Virus record (IMG/VR): IMGVR_UViG_3300032084_000352
Span: 1-25,170 of that record
Direction: 5' to 3' (one strand)
DNA from: a virus
Length of the DNA stretch: 25,170 nt
The notes beneath the pieces are model-generated. The model saw only the letters and a program-made list of their open reading frames with translations, did no database searches and was not told the origin of the DNA. Within the stretch, counting starts at the first letter, position 1; every line of letters begins with the position of its first letter. A program made the translations under genes and the position numbers. Below, piece by piece: positions 6,414 through 19,941 of this stretch.

Positions 6414-6901
6414 TGCAGGCTGACCTCTTTCCAGAGCATCTGGAGCAGGCATACAGAGCAGAGGATTGCTTTGATATGTCTGCCCCACCGCTTCGTATTA
6501 AAGAGTGCGACAAGTTCTGGGTAAATCAAAATAAAAAGCGGATTGATTTTCTTCTTGACCTTCCGAAAGATTTGTATTATATTTTTCAGGACGTTGAGGG
6601 AAAGCCTGCTATCTTCAACAAGAAGCGGGGCAAATACTTGTCCCCTTCATACAGCAGAGACATCTACCCAGCGATTACAGTTAAGGGTAAGTTGTTTTAC
6701 ATACATACACTGGTTGGAATATTCTTTCTTGAGAATAATCTACCGCAAGTAAAGTGTATTGTAGACCACATAAATCACGACCCGTGGGATTACAGAGTTG
6801 CTAACCTTGAGTGGGTGTCAAGTTCTGAAAACATAAAGCGGGGCAGGCGTGAAGACAAACCCTTACACGGGTTCAACAGACAGACAGGGGAAACACTATG
6901 A
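6413..6901 (+). CDS. HNH endonuclease (homing-type)
   Basis: A 162-residue probable HNH nuclease. The C-terminal half carries the HNH_3-type pattern: HTLVGIFFLE (about residues 98-107), VDHINHDPWDYRVANLEWVS (about 117-136) with the paired D-H and the N residues, then SSENIKRGRR. Such proteins are usually free-standing homing endonucleases inserted between phage genes, and this one sits between primase-helicase and polymerase, a common position. It starts at ATG 6413 inside TGATG; GTG 6410 is a weaker alternative. The first 90 residues may hold DNA recognition. It overlaps the next gene by 4 bases, so it is either ancient or integrated without disturbing the operon. Confidence 0.8.
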   Translation: MQADLFPEHLEQAYRAEDCFDMSAPPLRIKECDKFWVNQNKKRIDFLLDLPKDLYYIFQDVEGKPAIFNKKRGKYLSPSYSRDIYPAITVKGKLFYIHTLVGIFFLENNLPQVKCIVDHINHDPWDYRVANLEWVSSSENIKRGRREDKPLHGFNRQTGETL

Positions 6902-7371
6902 AACTCAAACCAATACACGGCGCAGTGAACATCCCGTTCAGCCGCCAAAGATATGAACACGCTGACCGTCCGGCTAAAGACGTCATCATTGACTATCTGG
7001 TATCTAATGGTCACGAGATTCTTGATACCAAAGAAGATTTTTCTGTTGACATCAAGTCAAAGAAAGGTTATAATCGCTACTTCAGCGAGGTTGAGATAAA
7101 GTATGGATGGAAAGGAGATTGGAATCCGAATTGGAAAGAGATACGCTTACCATATCGTAAGCACAAACTTATCAACAAGGTTCAATCACTGGACATTGAC
7201 AATGCCTTCTTCAACTTCTACATCATACGACCTGACATGAAGGCGGCATGGCGAATCAAAGACAACGTAGTTGCAGAGTCAGAGGTGCGTGAGGCACAGG
7301 GACGTAACATTGTGAAGGGTGAACACTTCTTCCACATACCATATGAGAAAGCAGAGTTGATTGAACTATGA
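6898..7371 (+). CDS. Putative PD-(D/E)XK nuclease-like protein
   Basis: A 157-residue protein next to the polymerase. The segment DFSVDIKSKKGYNRYF followed by SEVEIKYGW (about residues 47-71) has the strand-turn-strand arrangement and acidic-x-Lys pair (E66, K68, with D51 upstream) of PD-(D/E)XK nucleases. The rest is a mixed alpha/beta fold. A helix near residues 25-37 precedes the motif, as in that fold. Family membership is inference from this pattern. It is distinct from the T7 endonuclease I homologue at 10843. ATG 6898 overlaps the previous stop by 4 bases and its own stop overlaps polymerase ATG 7368, so it is tightly coupled to polymerase expression. Confidence 0.5.
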   Translation: MKLKPIHGAVNIPFSRQRYEHADRPAKDVIIDYLVSNGHEILDTKEDFSVDIKSKKGYNRYFSEVEIKYGWKGDWNPNWKEIRLPYRKHKLINKVQSLDIDNAFFNFYIIRPDMKAAWRIKDNVVAESEVREAQGRNIVKGEHFFHIPYEKAELIEL

Positions 7372-9693: not shown

Positions 9694-9897
9694 ATGACAG
9701 ATTTACCAGTACAACTGGTGTTGTTTTACTTCGCAGTCGCAGGCTTCTTCATCGGGTGGGCTTTCCCACGTGGTAAGTATCTAAAAGCCTTTCAATTGCG
9801 ACTATTTAAAGCACTTCACAACTTCTTCGCAGATGAAGAAGAATACATTGCACACAAAGCAGAGCGCCTTCGCAAGAGGGTGAGGCGCAAGAGCTAG
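9694..9897 (+). CDS. Small single-TM protein with basic tail
   Basis: A 67-residue protein with one membrane helix (residues about 5-25, LVLFYFAVAGFFIGWAF) and a long amphipathic, basic cytoplasmic tail ending in AERLRKRVRRKS. The start ATG 9694 is preferred over GTG 9658 because AGGAG lies about ten bases upstream. By the positive-inside rule the tail faces the cytoplasm and could bind DNA or RNA at the membrane. No family is recognised. The final base of its TAG stop is also the first base of the tRNA gene. Confidence 0.6.
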   Translation: MTDLPVQLVLFYFAVAGFFIGWAFPRGKYLKAFQLRLFKALHNFFADEEEYIAHKAERLRKRVRRKS

Positions 9898-9973
9898 GAC
9901 ACGTAGCTCAACTGGATAGAGCAGCAGACTTCTAATCTGCAGGTTGCAGGTTCAAGTCCTGCCGTGTTCGCCA
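9897..9973 (+). tRNA. tRNA-Arg, anticodon UCU
   Basis: A complete 77-base cloverleaf. The acceptor GGACACG (9897-9903) pairs with CGTGTTC (9963-9969). The D stem is GCTC/GAGC (9906-9909/9919-9922). The anticodon stem GCAGA/TCTGC (9924-9928/9936-9940) holds loop CTTCTAA with anticodon TCT at 9931-9933. The T stem GCAGG/CCTGC (9946-9950/9958-9962) holds loop TTCAAGT. The discriminator is G9970 and CCA is encoded (9971-9973). It reads AGA and AGG codons, which occur in the genes here. Base 9897 is shared with the stop codon of the previous gene, and the next gene starts 16 bases downstream, so release needs RNA processing from the mRNA. Confidence 0.95.
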
Positions 9974-12506: not shown

Positions 12507-14400
12507 TCACCTACCCACCGACTATCAAACATTTATTGCCACCTCACGATACGCCCGTTGGCTAGAAGACGAAGGCAGACGGGAGACATGGCCTGAAACA
12601 GTAGGTCGATTCATTGACTATATTGTACGTCCTTCGGACATTGACATCAAAACAATAGACGAGATTGAGGAAGCTATACTTAGCCTAGAGGTCATGCCTT
12701 CAATGCGTGCCTTAATGACAGCTGGTCCTGCGGCAGAGCGTGACAACACCTGTGTCTACAACTGTAGCTACCTACCCGTTGACCACCCCCGTGCCTTTGA
12801 CGAGGCTATGTTTATTCTTCTGTGTGGTACAGGAGTAGGCTTCTCTGTTGAGCGTCAAGCAATCCAGAAGCTGCCAACAGTTCCAGAAGAACTGACCAGC
12901 GTTGAGGATATGATTGTGGTACAGGACAGCAAAGAGGGTTGGGCAAAGGGCTTGCGTAAGCTTATCTCCCTGCTGTATACAGGAGACATTCCGAAATGGG
13001 ATTTGTCTAAGATTCGGCCAGCCGGTGCAAGACTTAAGACTTTTGGTGGTCGTGCCTCTGGTCCAGACCCGTTGAATGACCTGTTCAACTTTACTGTAGC
13101 CAAATTCAAAGGCGCAGCAGGCCGTAAGCTTAACAGTGTAGAGTGTCACGACATCATGTGTAAGATTGGTGAGGTAGTTGTGGTCGGCGGTGTTCGACGC
13201 AGTGCAATGATTAGCCTGTCCAACCTATCAGATGACCGTATGCGTCATGCCAAGTCTGGTCAGTGGTGGGAGAACGAGGGTCAACGTGCGTTGGCTAACA
13301 ACTCTGTTGCCTATACCGACAAGCCCGACATGGAAACATTCATGCGTGAGTGGACAGCACTGGTCGAATCTAAGTCTGGTGAGCGTGGTATCTTCAGCCG
13401 TGAGGCAGCAGACAAACACGTTGAGCGCAATGGTCGTCGTGAGATTGGCAAGGAGTGGGGAACGAACCCATGCAGTGAGATTATCCTGCGGCCTTATCAG
13501 TTCTGCAACCTGACAGAGGTTGTTGTTCGGCCTACCGACACAGAAAAAACCTTGACACGCAAGGTAAAGCTTGCTACAATCCTGGGTACAATTCAATCTA
13601 CGTATACCAACATGCCGTACCTACGGCCTGTGTGGCGGCGTAACACTGAAGAAGAAAGGCTGTTGGGTGTAAGCCTGACAGGTATTATGGACAATGAAAT
13701 CACTAGTAAACCGTCTGCAAAAACTCTTAACAAGCTTCGTGACGTTGCTGTACAAACAAACAACGAGGTTGCACAGCAGCTTGGAGTTGCTGCATCTGCG
13801 GCCATCACTTGCGTCAAGCCTTCGGGTACTGTCTCACAGCTTGTTGATTCTGCCTCTGGCATTCATGCTCGTCATAGCGAATATTATATCCGCACTGTAC
13901 GGGGCGATAATAAAGACCCGCTGACGCAGTTCATGCAGGACGCAGGCATCCCAGCAGAGCCGTGTGTAATGAAGCCAGACAGCACCACAGTATTTAGCTT
14001 CCCTACTAGGTCGCCCGACAACGCCGTAACACGTAACGACATGTCTGCGATTGAGCAGCTGGAGTTGTGGAAAACATACGCCCTTGAGTGGTGTGAACAC
14101 AAGCCATCCGTAACCATTACAGTTCGTGATGAGGAGTGGCTGAAGGTAGGAGCATGGGTGTTTGATAACTTTGACATCTGCTCTGGCGTATCCTTCCTGC
14201 CACACAGTGACCACACCTATGCACAAGCACCATATCAGGATTGTGACAAGGCCACATACACAACCGCCTTGAAGGAGATGCCTAAGAAGATTGACTGGTC
14301 AAAGCTTTCTGAATACGAGAAGGAAGACAACACCGCAGGGTCACAGACGCTGGCATGTTCTGGCGACAGTTGTGAAGTAGTTGACCTGACAGCAGCATGA
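12481..14400 (+). CDS. nrdJ: Class II (B12-dependent) ribonucleotide reductase
   Basis: A 639-residue adenosylcobalamin-dependent ribonucleotide reductase resembling the monomeric Lactobacillus type. It reduces ribonucleotides to deoxyribonucleotides without oxygen dependence. Active-site motif NPCSEI at 329-334 supplies the thiyl cysteine (331) and Glu333. Redox cysteines are probably Cys95 (or Cys91) and Cys342, and the C-terminal pair Cys626/Cys631 accepts electrons from thioredoxin or glutaredoxin. The CVKPSGTVSQLVDS loop (444-457) fits the family. No class I small-subunit or class III radical site is present. The host or environment must provide cobalamin. AGGAG at 12466-12470 supports ATG 12481. 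The stop overlaps glutaredoxin. Confidence 0.95.
   Translation: MTNNMTMTNHLPTDYQTFIATSRYARWLEDEGRRETWPETVGRFIDYIVRPSDIDIKTIDEIEEAILSLEVMPSMRALMTAGPAAERDNTCVYNCSYLPVDHPRAFDEAMFILLCGTGVGFSVERQAIQKLPTVPEELTSVEDMIVVQDSKEGWAKGLRKLISLLYTGDIPKWDLSKIRPAGARLKTFGGRASGPDPLNDLFNFTVAKFKGAAGRKLNSVECHDIMCKIGEVVVVGGVRRSAMISLSNLSDDRMRHAKSGQWWENEGQRALANNSVAYTDKPDMETFMREWTALVESKSGERGIFSREAADKHVERNGRREIGKEWGTNPCSEIILRPYQFCNLTEVVVRPTDTEKTLTRKVKLATILGTIQSTYTNMPYLRPVWRRNTEEERLLGVSLTGIMDNEITSKPSAKTLNKLRDVAVQTNNEVAQQLGVAASAAITCVKPSGTVSQLVDSASGIHARHSEYYIRTVRGDNKDPLTQFMQDAGIPAEPCVMKPDSTTVFSFPTRSPDNAVTRNDMSAIEQLELWKTYALEWCEHKPSVTITVRDEEWLKVGAWVFDNFDICSGVSFLPHSDHTYAQAPYQDCDKATYTTALKEMPKKIDWSKLSEYEKEDNTAGSQTLACSGDSCEVVDLTAA
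13552..13580 (+). promoter_or_regulatory. Promoter-like sequence inside nrdJ
   Basis: TTGACA (13552-13557), a 17-nt spacer and TACAAT (13575-13580) match sigma70 well (5 of 6 bases at -10). It lies inside the nrdJ coding region and could give extra transcription of the end of nrdJ, glutaredoxin and the genes after it. Chance is a real alternative because both hexamers fall on ordinary codons. Confidence 0.28.
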
Positions 14401-15331: not shown

Positions 15332-15360
15332 TTGACTTAACTAAATAAATTTTATATAAT
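15332..15360 (+). promoter_or_regulatory. Strong sigma70 promoter of the glycosyltransferase genes
   Basis: TTGACT (15332-15337), an AT-rich 17-nt spacer and a perfect TATAAT (15355-15360) form the best promoter in the window. Transcription would start near 15366-15370, exactly at the base of the hairpin that follows. It lies in a true gap of 111 bases. Confidence 0.72.
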
Positions 15361-15369
15361 ATAAGATAA

Positions 15370-15414
15370 GCGGTGGGCAGAGTTCTTCAGTCCTTTCTCT
15401 CATCTGTCCACCGC
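15370..15414 (+). promoter_or_regulatory. Long leader hairpin before glycosyltransferase gene
   Basis: GCGGTGGGCAGA (15370-15381) pairs with TCTGTCCACCGC (15403-15414), giving 12 pairs with one G-U, around a 21-base pyrimidine-rich loop. It begins about 10 bases after the TATAAT box, so it would form the very 5' end of the mRNA. No T run follows, which argues against a terminator. Likely roles are protection of the transcript from decay or a binding site for a regulator. GGAG (15426-15429) and ATG 15435 follow it. Confidence 0.6.
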
Positions 15415-15434
15415 ACCCTTATATTGGAGCAGTT

Positions 15435-16199
15435 ATGAACAGAAGACCAGTTATTTATGTCGGGTATGACGAGCGTGACCATCGAGCTTACGAGGTTCTG
15501 GAACACTCTATCCGCAAGTACAACAAAACATATGACATTATTCCCCTGCTTGAACCGGAGCTTCGCCGCATTGGTTTGTATCGCAGGGCTTCACGTGTGT
15601 TTGAACACGACCCACATCAACGGTATGATGTGTTTGACAACAAACCATTCAGCACAGACTTTACGTTTACTCGTTTCCTTGTCCCCGCATTAAACCAGTA
15701 TCAAGGATTGGCATTGTTTATGGATGCCGATATGCTTGTGCGTGGTGACATCGAAGGGATATTCGGTGTATATGGTAAGAGAACAGATTTTGCTGTCCAG
15801 TGTGTCAAGCACAAGTATGAGCCACCCGAAGGAGAAAAGATGGACGGTGTAGCCCAAACCCGCTATCGCAGAAAGAATTGGTCTAGCTTTATGTTATTTA
15901 ACTGCTCCCATCCTAGTAACAAAAAGCTTACCCTTGATGCAGTCAACCTGCAATCAGGTTCTTGGCTGCACTCTTTTGGGTGGCTTGACGATGACGAGAT
16001 TGGAGATATACATGAAGAATGGAACTGGCTTGATGGACATTCAAGCGAACATGTTGAAGCAAAGAATGCACACTTTACAACGGGCGGCCCGTGGTTTAAT
16101 AATTGGGAACCAAAGCGGCCTATTGACGAAGCATATGCAGAAGAGTGGCAAGCCGCCGAAAAAGAAATAACAACGCAGCTTATATTGGAGAACATGTAA
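15435..16199 (+). CDS. GT8-like glycosyltransferase
   Basis: A 254-residue probable glycosyltransferase of the GT-A, family 8-like kind. It opens with IYVGYDERDHRAYEVLEHSI (residues 7-26), a nucleotide-sugar-binding start. The metal-binding DxD motif is in LFMDADMLVRGD (94-105), followed by a mixed region with WLDDDE and a FTTGGPWFN motif near residues 215-224 that fits an acceptor/donor pocket. The donor sugar cannot be told from sequence. It has no membrane helix, so it acts in the cytoplasm. Its stop overlaps the start of the following three-domain protein, and both sit behind the promoter at 15332, implying a joint pathway. Confidence 0.78.
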   Translation: MNRRPVIYVGYDERDHRAYEVLEHSIRKYNKTYDIIPLLEPELRRIGLYRRASRVFEHDPHQRYDVFDNKPFSTDFTFTRFLVPALNQYQGLALFMDADMLVRGDIEGIFGVYGKRTDFAVQCVKHKYEPPEGEKMDGVAQTRYRRKNWSSFMLFNCSHPSNKKLTLDAVNLQSGSWLHSFGWLDDDEIGDIHEEWNWLDGHSSEHVEAKNAHFTTGGPWFNNWEPKRPIDEAYAEEWQAAEKEITTQLILENM

Positions 16200-18481
16200 T
16201 GTATACTTTTGTAACCAGCTTTCCAAAAAAATTTGAAAAAGACTACGGACTGCCAATGCTGGAGTCTGTTGTTAATAAATGGAAGCCAACAGATTTTAAA
16301 CTATACGTATACCTAGAAGGATACGAAGGTAATATAGACAGCCTCCCGCAGGAAAGCTTTATTACCTATCGTCACATCGAGGATGTGCAAGCACGTAACG
16401 ATTTTATCAAACGCAACGCAGACAAGAACGGCCGCTTTGCGGAAGCACCGTATAACTACAGGATGGATGCTGTGCGTTTCTGTAATAAAGTTTACGCATA
16501 CTCTGACCTAGCCCTTGAGTTAATGGGTGAAGAATACAAAGGCTGGTTAGCGTGGCTTGATGCTGACACTATAACAAAGAAACGATTTACTGCAAAGGAT
16601 GCAGCTAAGATTATGCTTGACGAAGTAGACATGGTACATCTTGGTCGTATTGACATTGACTATAGCGAGACAGGTTTTACTGCCTGGAACATGGCGTATC
16701 ATAATGCCTGCTCACATATTGTAGATATACGTGGCGCATACGATACCGATGAGGTCTTTGGCTATCGTGAGTGGACTGATTCATTTGTGTATACACGTCT
16801 GCTTAAAGTATATGAAGCACATGGTTCTAAAGTACGTAACTTGTCAGAGGGTGTTCGTGGCCTAGAGGTATTTGAAAACTGTATATTAAACGAACACTTT
16901 ACACACAACAAGGGTAATCGAAAGTTTGAAAAGAAGCAAGAAGTTTCCCCTGATGTTGTCGGACCCAAAAGATACAAGCAACTAGCAGACATGGTTCGCT
17001 TTTACTCCAAAGGCCGTGATAGCTTTACTATTGTAGAAACAGGAACATGGAATGGTGGCCGTGCTATTGAGATGGCTCTTGCTGCATTTGAAAATGTAGA
17101 TACTGTACATTATCGTGGCTTTGATTTGTTTGAAGAAGCTACAGATGAGACAGACAAGCTAGAGCTAAACATTAAGGCTCATAATTTAACAGAGGCAGTA
17201 GGACGCAGGCTTGCAGAGTTCACAGTTAAAATGACAGAGCAAGGTAAAAAATTTACACACACTCTTCACTGTGGAAATACTAAAGAAACAATGAAGGGCA
17301 AACGCTTTGATGATGTAGACCTTGCATATATTGATGGTGGTCATTCATATGATACAGTCAAGAGTGATTATACATTTTTGAAAGACGTTCCGGTTGTGGT
17401 ATTCGATGATTACTATTCACATAAAGACGAAGAGTTTTTAAACAATCCAGATTATAATGGTATTATTAGAACCTTTACAGAAATTAAAGACAAGAACAAG
17501 AACATCCTTCCGTCGGATGACCCGACTGCTTTTGGTGGCAAAGTACACCTTGGAGTTGCCTTGTCTAAAAAAGAAAAGCCATTACCCAAAGACTTAACAC
17601 GGGTTCCGATTATTGTTAAACCAAAAGACTCAATGCCAGCAGATGATATACATAAGAATATTATTTATAATGTAGAAAAAATAAATGATTTTGATTGGGT
17701 CAAGCAATATAAAACAAACAACAAGCATGTTATTATTGCTTCTGGTGGTCAGCTCGACATGAAAGAAATTAAAAGGGTACAAAAGAAATATAATGCAGAG
17801 ATATGGTGTGTTAAACATTCATACCCTCGCCTTCTTAAAGCAGGAATTAAACCTGATGCTTGTGTTATCCTAGACCCCCGCCCAGTTGACGGTGTAAGTA
17901 CCCATGGAATTAGACGTAAAGATTTATTTGAAACAGTAGACCCAAGCACCATGTTTATTATTGCAAGCATGACTGATATTTCTGCTGTCGATTACATTAT
18001 GTCAAAGACAAAAAATGTTAAAGGGTTTCATGCATTTACAGATGCAGTGCGTGACACAGAAAGAAATGATACGTTTGTAGTTAATCCTAAACTACCTATT
18101 CCTACGGGAACAGTCTTTATTTCTGGTGGCACAGCTTCAGCAACAAGAGCAATAGGACTGTTAGAAACATTAGGATATAGAAACATCCATATGTTTGGGT
18201 TTGATTCTAGCGTACCAGATAGTAAGGCAAACAAAGAAGACAAGGATGAAATGGGACAGCCCAAGTATATGCATGTAGAAACAGGCGGAATAAATTTCTG
18301 GACAACAGGAGAGCTTTTAGCCCTTGCGCAAGACCTGGAAAAAATGTTTGATAGAAAAGACCTGGCTCTTAATATAAACTTTTACGGAGAGAATACTTTA
18401 GCGGCTCAAGTATTTAAGCAATCATACTATAATACAAAGTTTCAAACCTTTGAGGAGTTTATGGATGACAGGGCAGCTTAA
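16199..18481 (+). CDS. Three-domain glycosyltransferase-methyltransferase-DUF115 protein
   Basis: A 760-residue protein that joins three carbohydrate-related modules. Residues 1-250 look like a GT-A glycosyltransferase, with DAD at 121-123 in GWLAWLDADT. Residues 273-460 form a class I methyltransferase of the Methyltransf_24 kind, with the SAM loop IVETGTWNGG (278-287), DLAYIDGGHSYD (374-385) and VVVFDDYY (399-406). Residues 508-740 resemble DUF115, the domain of Maf flagellin-glycosylation proteins: VIIASGGQLD, KAGIKPDACVILDP (547-560), SGGTASATRAIGLLETLGY (642-660) and MFGFDSS. One chain may therefore transfer, methylate and attach or sense a sugar. The start ATG 16199 has GGAG at 16187-16190; longer upstream forms overlap the previous gene. 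The target is unknown. Confidence 0.78.
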   Translation: MYTFVTSFPKKFEKDYGLPMLESVVNKWKPTDFKLYVYLEGYEGNIDSLPQESFITYRHIEDVQARNDFIKRNADKNGRFAEAPYNYRMDAVRFCNKVYAYSDLALELMGEEYKGWLAWLDADTITKKRFTAKDAAKIMLDEVDMVHLGRIDIDYSETGFTAWNMAYHNACSHIVDIRGAYDTDEVFGYREWTDSFVYTRLLKVYEAHGSKVRNLSEGVRGLEVFENCILNEHFTHNKGNRKFEKKQEVSPDVVGPKRYKQLADMVRFYSKGRDSFTIVETGTWNGGRAIEMALAAFENVDTVHYRGFDLFEEATDETDKLELNIKAHNLTEAVGRRLAEFTVKMTEQGKKFTHTLHCGNTKETMKGKRFDDVDLAYIDGGHSYDTVKSDYTFLKDVPVVVFDDYYSHKDEEFLNNPDYNGIIRTFTEIKDKNKNILPSDDPTAFGGKVHLGVALSKKEKPLPKDLTRVPIIVKPKDSMPADDIHKNIIYNVEKINDFDWVKQYKTNNKHVIIASGGQLDMKEIKRVQKKYNAEIWCVKHSYPRLLKAGIKPDACVILDPRPVDGVSTHGIRRKDLFETVDPSTMFIIASMTDISAVDYIMSKTKNVKGFHAFTDAVRDTERNDTFVVNPKLPIPTGTVFISGGTASATRAIGLLETLGYRNIHMFGFDSSVPDSKANKEDKDEMGQPKYMHVETGGINFWTTGELLALAQDLEKMFDRKDLALNINFYGENTLAAQVFKQSYYNTKFQTFEEFMDDRAA

Positions 18482-18920
18482 AGAAAGGCAAGAAAAGTTT
18501 TGTCAGGCATATCTTATTAGCAGAAATGCAACTTCTGCTGCAAAAGAAGCAGGGTATAGTGAACGCTCTGCATACAATCAGGGATATGAACTTTTAAAAA
18601 AACCTGAAATACAACGAAGACTTGAAGAACTTGAAGAAGAATACAGCACCGATGTAGATGTTGTATCAGAACTTGAGAAGCAATACGAGCAAGCCAAAAC
18701 AAACGGCAATGGACAGACCGCACTTAAAGCTCTTGAGTTGCTGTCTCGTGTACGTGGTAACAATGCAGAAGACGAGGGACCGCAGGACGTAGCAGGCCTT
18801 GAAGGAAAGATATGTGCATCAATGCAAATCATAGGTAAAGAAAAAATGTACGAACTATTTATGTCTACATGGCCTGAAGATTTTGAGGACGAAGAAGATG
18901 AAGTTGTCTCCGATGAATAA
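18465..18920 (+). CDS. Terminase small subunit
   Basis: A 151-residue small terminase subunit of the Terminase_2 type, which recognises phage DNA and starts packaging with the large subunit. The typical N-terminal helix-turn-helix reads KERQEKFCQAYLISRNATSA, then AKEAGYSERSAYNQGYELLK and PEIQRRLEEL. A helical oligomerisation region and a very acidic end (EDFEDEEDEVVSDE) follow. ATG 18465 is supported by GAGGAG at 18452-18457. It overlaps the preceding gene by 17 bases and the following one by 23. No large subunit is visible in the window, so the small subunit is separated from it or it lies outside. Confidence 0.87.
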   Translation: MTGQLKERQEKFCQAYLISRNATSAAKEAGYSERSAYNQGYELLKKPEIQRRLEELEEEYSTDVDVVSELEKQYEQAKTNGNGQTALKALELLSRVRGNNAEDEGPQDVAGLEGKICASMQIIGKEKMYELFMSTWPEDFEDEEDEVVSDE

Positions 18921-19941
18921 ATTTACAGAAAAAACTGCACTTGTTACTGGCGTAACGGGACAGGACGGTGGCTATCTTGCAGAGCTACTGCTTGATAAAG
19001 GATATATTGTACACGGTCTACAGCGGCGTGTATCTTCTGAACCATCAAGGCGTATTGCACACTTGATTGACCAGCCTAACTTTCATTTACACTACGGTGA
19101 TTTGACTGATACAGGTAGCCTAATGCAGCTGTTTGACACTCATTTATTTGATGAAGTTTACAACCTTGCGGCGCAGTCTCACGTGCGTGTCTCATTTGAT
19201 GTCCCAGAATACACTGCTAACGTGGATGCTATGGGGGTTTTAAGGCTCTTAGAGTGCATTCGCACACTTGGCTTGACTGAACACACCAAATTTTATCAAG
19301 CGTCTACGTCAGAGCTATATGGAAAGGTTTTAGAAACACCTCAATCAGAGGTCACACCCTTCTATCCACGCAGTCCATACGGGGTATCTAAGCAGTTTGC
19401 ATTCTGGACTGTAAAGAACTACCGTGAGGCGTATAATATGCACGCATCCAATGGCATCCTATTTAATCACGAGTCTCCCTGGCGGGGCAAAGAGTTTGTT
19501 ACACAGAAAATTGTGCAGGGCGTAGCTGATATTGCACGTGGCAAACTGTCGCACATAGAGCTAGGCAACCTAGATGCAGAGAGAGACTGGGGACATGCCG
19601 AAGATTACGTTGAAGGTATGTATCTTATGCTGCAGCAGCCACAGGGCGACGACTACGTGCTTGCTACTGGTGAGCTACATTCTGTACGTGAGCTTGTTGA
19701 GAAGTGTTTTGCCGCAGTAGATATGCGAATCAGGTGGGTGGGTGATGTCGGCCTAGATGAAACTGCCATAGACGAGAATGACAACACAGTAGTAAAGATT
19801 AATGCCCAGTTCTATCGTCCTGCAGAGGTAGACCTATTGCTTGGTGACTCAACCAAAGCTCGTGAAGTTCTGGGTTGGAAGCCTAAATATACGTTTGATT
19901 CTATGATTGACCAGATGATGCAGGAAGCTATTGCTTCTTAG
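18898..19941 (+). CDS. gmd: GDP-mannose 4,6-dehydratase
   Basis: A 347-residue short-chain dehydrogenase family enzyme that turns GDP-mannose into GDP-4-keto-6-deoxymannose, the precursor of fucose, rhamnose and perosamine-type sugars. NADP-binding GVTGQDGGY (18-26), VHGLQRR (38-44), the STSELYG motif (136-142, catalytic Thr/Ser and Glu139) and SPYGVSK (159-165, Tyr161 and Lys165) are present, as is NHESPWRGKEFVT. The length fits Gmd. The start ATG 18898 has GAGG at about 18885-18888; ATG 18913 is possible. The product needs a further enzyme (reductase, epimerase or aminotransferase), which is not in the window. Its last bases overlap the convergent gene. Confidence 0.9.
   Translation: MKLSPMNKFTEKTALVTGVTGQDGGYLAELLLDKGYIVHGLQRRVSSEPSRRIAHLIDQPNFHLHYGDLTDTGSLMQLFDTHLFDEVYNLAAQSHVRVSFDVPEYTANVDAMGVLRLLECIRTLGLTEHTKFYQASTSELYGKVLETPQSEVTPFYPRSPYGVSKQFAFWTVKNYREAYNMHASNGILFNHESPWRGKEFVTQKIVQGVADIARGKLSHIELGNLDAERDWGHAEDYVEGMYLMLQQPQGDDYVLATGELHSVRELVEKCFAAVDMRIRWVGDVGLDETAIDENDNTVVKINAQFYRPAEVDLLLGDSTKAREVLGWKPKYTFDSMIDQMMQEAIAS

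Follow-up and report, generated by a model that had tools for sequence, protein, structure and literature searches.

A covarying leader hairpin with a conserved pyrimidine-rich loop behind an operon promoter in relatives of the HMO-2011-type phages

Our analysis describes a hairpin that directly follows a sigma-70-type promoter at the head of a glycosyltransferase-containing operon in uncultured marine relatives of the HMO-2011-type phages. As read from the compared sequences, its stem is a genuine RNA pairing that is under selection, and the role of the element is probably protection of the message or help in ribosome loading. The window, that is, the whole stretch of DNA analysed, is a virus record of 25,170 bases. 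Its DNA polymerase is nearest to those of pelagiphages HTVC104P and HTVC103P (46%) and its ribonucleotide reductase to those of Roseobacter phages (75%), and on the basis of these nearest relatives the phage was classed as a relative of the HMO-2011 type, presented in PMC9038755 as a dominant marine phage group. The element and the genes behind it are arranged as follows:

15332 to 15360, plus strand: sigma-70-type promoter TTGACT-17-TATAAT, by consensus match
15366 to 15368, plus strand: transcript start as predicted 6-8 nt downstream of the -10 box
15370 to 15381, plus strand: 5' arm of the stem, from fold, stem scan and alignment
15382 to 15402, plus strand: pyrimidine-rich loop of 21 nt with the conserved UUUCUCUC tract
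15403 to 15414, plus strand: 3' arm of the stem, from fold, stem scan and alignment
15415 to 15434, plus strand: linker and Shine-Dalgarno (SD) sequence (GGAG), unpaired in the predicted hairpin
15435 to 16199, plus strand: glycosyltransferase-like protein, first gene in the window (PF01501, E 1.6e-4, just under the Pfam cut-off)
16200 to 18481, plus strand: methyltransferase/MptE-like protein, second gene of the presumed operon (the listed open frame from 16145 overlaps the glycosyltransferase)
18450 to 18920, plus strand: terminase small subunit
18883 to 19941, plus strand: GDP-mannose 4,6-dehydratase, last plus-strand gene ahead of a convergent block

The 12-pair stem of the original prediction (15370-15381 with 15403-15414) is present, begins 9 nt after TATAAT and comprises 8 G-C pairs, with one G-U among the 12. 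It has no equal in shuffles of the window: stems of at least 12 pairs, at least 8 of them G-C, with loops of 3-30 nt occur once on the plus strand and in none of 40 dinucleotide shuffles. That it would be the strongest hairpin holds for this window when stems of 10 or more pairs with loops of up to 40 nt are considered. The 75-nt leader has a predicted fold of -23.6 kcal/mol (z -3.7; 1 of 200 shuffles was equally low), in which the SD and the start codon are unpaired. The loop, described earlier as pyrimidine-rich, has 17 pyrimidines in its 21 nt, a content reached by 114 of the 25,149 21-mers on the plus strand. No U tract was found directly after the stem, and this, together with the long loop, agrees with the earlier view that the structure is not an ordinary terminator. 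The perfect TATAAT reported at 15355-15360 was also found, with TTGACT (15332-15337) 17 nt upstream, the two boxes matching 11 of 12 consensus positions. The promoter had moreover been called the strongest one, which was not sustained when judged by consensus, as TTGACA-17-TATAAT at 7046 scores 12/12 against 11/12.

Relatives were obtained by a protein search of viral contigs, from which the best 80 of 132 glycosyltransferase loci were taken and scanned for a promoter of at least 11/12 and then a stem, the sequences of loop and stem being left free. Promoter and hairpin occurred together in 51 of these best 80 loci; the rest were 20 loci with a promoter and without such a hairpin, 7 below the promoter threshold and 2 with too little flank. 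Further members came from pattern scans (35 of 37 stretches in one scan, 37 of 50 in another), and 24 of 88 pattern matches in newly gathered loci carried the tract in the loop; the stems of L218 and L255, where the tract sits in the stem, were left uncounted. Several element loci share a contig, and after collapsing there were 25 distinct hairpins, 22 in stem-sequence groups A-G, which belong to this phage type and represent seven lineage-specific stem sequences, and 3 in group H (the A-H grouping is our own). All element-bearing relatives have a promoter at 11-12/12 consensus with a spacing of 17. A covariance model found exactly one strong copy (E <=2.5e-11) in 22 of 30 records, weak hits only in three and no hit in five. 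Six weak hits were inspected and none was a second promoter-linked copy, one of them being the known group H element of its own record and another a hairpin that has a pyrimidine loop and no promoter.

The stem alignment was built from 18 of the 22 A-G hairpins, four near-copies being omitted. Of its 231 aligned cells, 93.9% are paired, a percentage that arises partly by construction since the groups were recognised by their stem, which does not apply to the double changes or to the shared genomic place. Changes on both sides that preserve pairing are found at 8 of the 13 pairs, so that the covarying pairs which the original prediction looked for in related phages do occur. Covariation amounts to 0.531 compared with 0.277 in shuffles; of 500 shuffles, none was as high as the alignment on four of the five measures used, and 13 were on the remaining one. 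On the same alignment, RNAalifold found 10 of those pairs, 7 with double changes. G-U states occur alongside the compensatory changes, and the predicted hairpin energy stays between -20.0 and -23.9 kcal/mol across groups A-G with differing letters.

The loops of groups A-G measure 19-30 nt with 16-27 pyrimidines, are C/U-rich and G-poor, and their tract is better conserved than the letters of the stem. UCUCUC is present in the loop of every distinct hairpin. CCUCCUU is additionally found in the loops of B (variant L250 excepted), D, F and G, and A, C and E are without CCUCC. In most B loops, and in G, the sequence ACCUCCUUUCU equals the alphaproteobacterial 16S 3' end. Of 76 genomes from this class, 11 contain GGATCACCTCCTTTCT, representing that 16S end, and the one occurrence that was checked was confirmed as a 16S gene end.

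Six carrier records were compared with the window. In each of them the element is found between the end of the ribonucleotide reductase gene and the glycosyltransferase/MptE-like/terminase-small block, at the junction of a nucleotide-metabolism block and a glycosyltransferase/terminase block. The first gene behind it encodes the glycosyltransferase in 32 of 51 loci. In the other 19 at least one gene intervenes, so the earlier assignment of the hairpin to the glycosyltransferase mRNA proved too narrow and the element is better described as an operon leader. The intervening gene often encodes a protein of 55-64 residues; in several lineages (L083 1741-1914 and relatives) the first protein behind the hairpin is of this size and has a 'GLGELPAK'-like stretch, and the one copy tested had no PHROGs match.

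A tree was built from 45 distinct glycosyltransferases; those of carriers, 36 in number, form one clade (100/96), and each group with at least two rows is itself one clade. A single origin followed by joint change of the stem letters is the simplest reading of these sequences. A sister clade has kept the promoter and dropped the hairpin (the 20 loci mentioned above among the best 80), which indicates that the hairpin is dispensable. Sequences upstream differ right up to the promoter, and for this reason a mobile promoter-hairpin cassette was considered; it was dropped, given that the element keeps a syntenic position across the carrier records that were compared and that all carriers fall into a single clade. 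A source in bacterial genomes was also looked for: the A/B pattern gave 60 stretches in genome contigs of very varied taxa, taken as chance, of which 3 have a -10-like word within 60 nt upstream and none joins a promoter to such a stem (folds judged by eye).

A similar layout is found in a second phage type. The L239, L265 and L280 records, which constitute group H, have TTGACA-17-TATAAT followed after 6 nt by a stem of 13-14 pairs, with loops of 24-26 nt containing TTCTCTCTC or TTTTTTCTCTCTCTC; this group was found with a pattern that demanded the tract and not the stem. Two of these records were examined and have terminase, tail and adaptor genes by PHROGs, and 20 window proteins gave no match against them. 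Also in a group H phage, L320 (G023:4545-4599) is a hairpin with a TTTCTCTC loop that lies directly after a stop codon and has no strong promoter.

A possible explanation, which we advance tentatively and to which we give somewhat less than an even chance, is that the element constitutes a 5'-terminal leader hairpin that protects the message and whose loop docks a host factor. In this sense, host sigma-70-type RNA polymerase would read the operon from the conserved promoter, and transcription from 15366-15368, a start placed by the rule of 6-8 nt after the -10 box, would yield an mRNA that starts with the stem and whose 5' end is thereby kept out of reach of RppH/RNase E decay. The loop would hold the pyrimidine tract single-stranded just 5' of the ribosome binding site (RBS), where it may serve as a docking site, most likely for the 30S subunit via protein S1, the net outcome being a long-lived and well translated operon message. 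Stem-loops at the 5' end are known to stabilise mRNAs, as reviewed in PMC3997798 and PMC7509114. The stem of each of the 25 distinct hairpins begins 2-9 nt downstream of the -10 box, so that with the usual start the mRNA 5' end would be paired or nearly so, which is the layout of protective 5' stems; if +1 is the 7th base after the box, all 25 would have 0-3 unpaired 5' bases. Two observations count against the explanation: the sister clade does without the hairpin, and protection of the 5' end does not appear to be a general need, since other strong promoters of the carriers lack such a hairpin. Of the 39 promoters scoring 11/12 or better in seven carrier records, a strong stem follows 7 only, the element promoters, and the stems after the others have at most 10 pairs and at most 4 G-C. 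A binder of the loop is called for because 5'-end protection alone leaves the conserved loop unexplained, and docking of the ribosome or S1 by the loop is our best guess.

That same conservation may instead mark the target of a regulator, of phage or host origin, that binds the RNA and acts on the operon as repressor or activator at a particular stage of infection, a possibility that we consider unlikely. The loop tract outlasts the stem letters, each strongly matching record has a single site, and a few small early proteins occur in four carrier records but in neither of two non-carriers. However, these co-occurring proteins have no RNA-binding assignment and the comparison covers two non-carriers, and the loop length ranges from 19 to 30 nt.

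It is more doubtful that the CU-rich loop forms part of a Rho-loading (rut) site, with the stem setting access and thereby controlling premature Rho-dependent termination. The loop is C/U-rich and G-poor, and in E. coli cfa, as described in PMC12691595, a CU-rich tract in a stem-loop governs Rho access. Nevertheless, the rut sites of that source comprise about 80 nt of C-rich, G-poor, unstructured RNA, whereas here a pyrimidine-rich stretch of 19-30 nt is enclosed in a very stable hairpin and translation begins only some 20-25 nt downstream.

The likeness to the 16S 3' end allows two further readings, both improbable. In one, about as doubtful as Rho loading, the leader hairpin would display a copy of the host 16S 3' end (anti-SD and UCUCUC) that engages the translation machinery or the RBS of other mRNAs; the layout of such a ribosome-mimic leader, a strong promoter, a stem at +1 and a UCUCUC loop, is seen in the unrelated phage type of group H as well. 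The other, which we rate slightly lower still, takes the loop as an anti-SD mimic pairing with the SD of its own or other mRNAs. The ACCUCCUUUCU identity in B and G and the CCUCCUU of B (one variant excepted), D, F and G are in line with it, as is the use of UUUCCUCCCU by alphaproteobacterial sRNAs described in PMC12559287. Still, loop-to-SD pairing exceeded that of shuffled loops in 3 of 6 sets and was no better in the other 3, and UCUCUC is all that is common to every group, A, C and E having no CCUCC. A loop-SD pseudoknot in cis is disfavoured, since the 2-nt linker in group D would make it sterically difficult. Very unlikely, finally, are a DNA operator palindrome, which the position next to the promoter would suit but which was rejected because the arm spacing varies between 19 and 30 nt and the compensatory changes and G-U states favour RNA, and an attenuator or intrinsic terminator, rejected for its long loops and missing U tract, the window leader moreover having no ATG ahead of the gene start.

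The proposed protective leader would share with those of E. coli ompA and papA and B. subtilis aprE a stem at the 5' end, few or no unpaired bases before it, and an open SD. In those stabilising stem-loops the stem matters and the loop letters are not known to; the element described here differs in being a phage operon leader whose pyrimidine loop is conserved over diverged stems. The E. coli cfa leader also shows a CU-rich tract in a stem-loop, but there it is located some 85-102 nt down a long leader that has sRNA sites (PMC12691595), and in the phage element it falls in roughly the first 40 nt from the predicted start and the stem is far more stable. Caulobacter SisA-D and the alphaR8 sRNAs have a comparable pyrimidine string resembling the anti-SD. 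They are, as described in PMC12559287, separate sRNAs with a single-stranded 10-mer, whereas the phage string belongs to the loop of an mRNA leader, and UCUCUC within it is not anti-SD. In the standby-site leader of E. coli tisB, the RBS is sequestered and about 100 nt away, in contrast to the predicted open and adjacent RBS of the phage leader.

No Rfam family matches the element, a blastn search with the leader as query gave no match in 50,697 phage records, and the element was not found on the plus strand of 12-20 kb around the ribonucleotide reductase or polymerase gene in ten named cultured phages. A search of the literature by title found no paper on such a phage leader, and a term search of PMC9038755, which deals with the HMO-2011 type, returned no promoter, terminator, RNA polymerase or hairpin. 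An RNA element that is clade-wide and strongly covarying offers a concrete way to study how these phages determine the output of a single operon, and its natural variants are at hand for testing what a pyrimidine loop conserved at the start of an mRNA does.

Other features were observed in these genomes. About 360-370 nt without annotated genes directly follow the ribonucleotide reductase gene in HMO-2011 (L357 6942-7303), CRP-345 (L361 6933-7302) and CRP-1 (L365 6903-7272). HTVC104P has a +1 hairpin of another kind upstream of its primase gene (L366 7126-7190), where TTGACA-17-TATAGT is followed after 4 nt by a 9-pair stem with a 4-nt loop. The window contains a tRNA-Arg (TCT) gene at 9897-9973 in the replication region. 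Its 12/12 promoter (7046-7074) lies within ORF 6898-7371, just 5' of the DNA polymerase gene, and record G005 has a 12/12 site at 45854 with similar downstream sequence. Within the ribonucleotide reductase gene, at 13552-13580, there is a promoter-like site of 11/12; records G001 and G002 have corresponding sites that are followed by similar sequence, a resemblance that coding conservation alone may explain.
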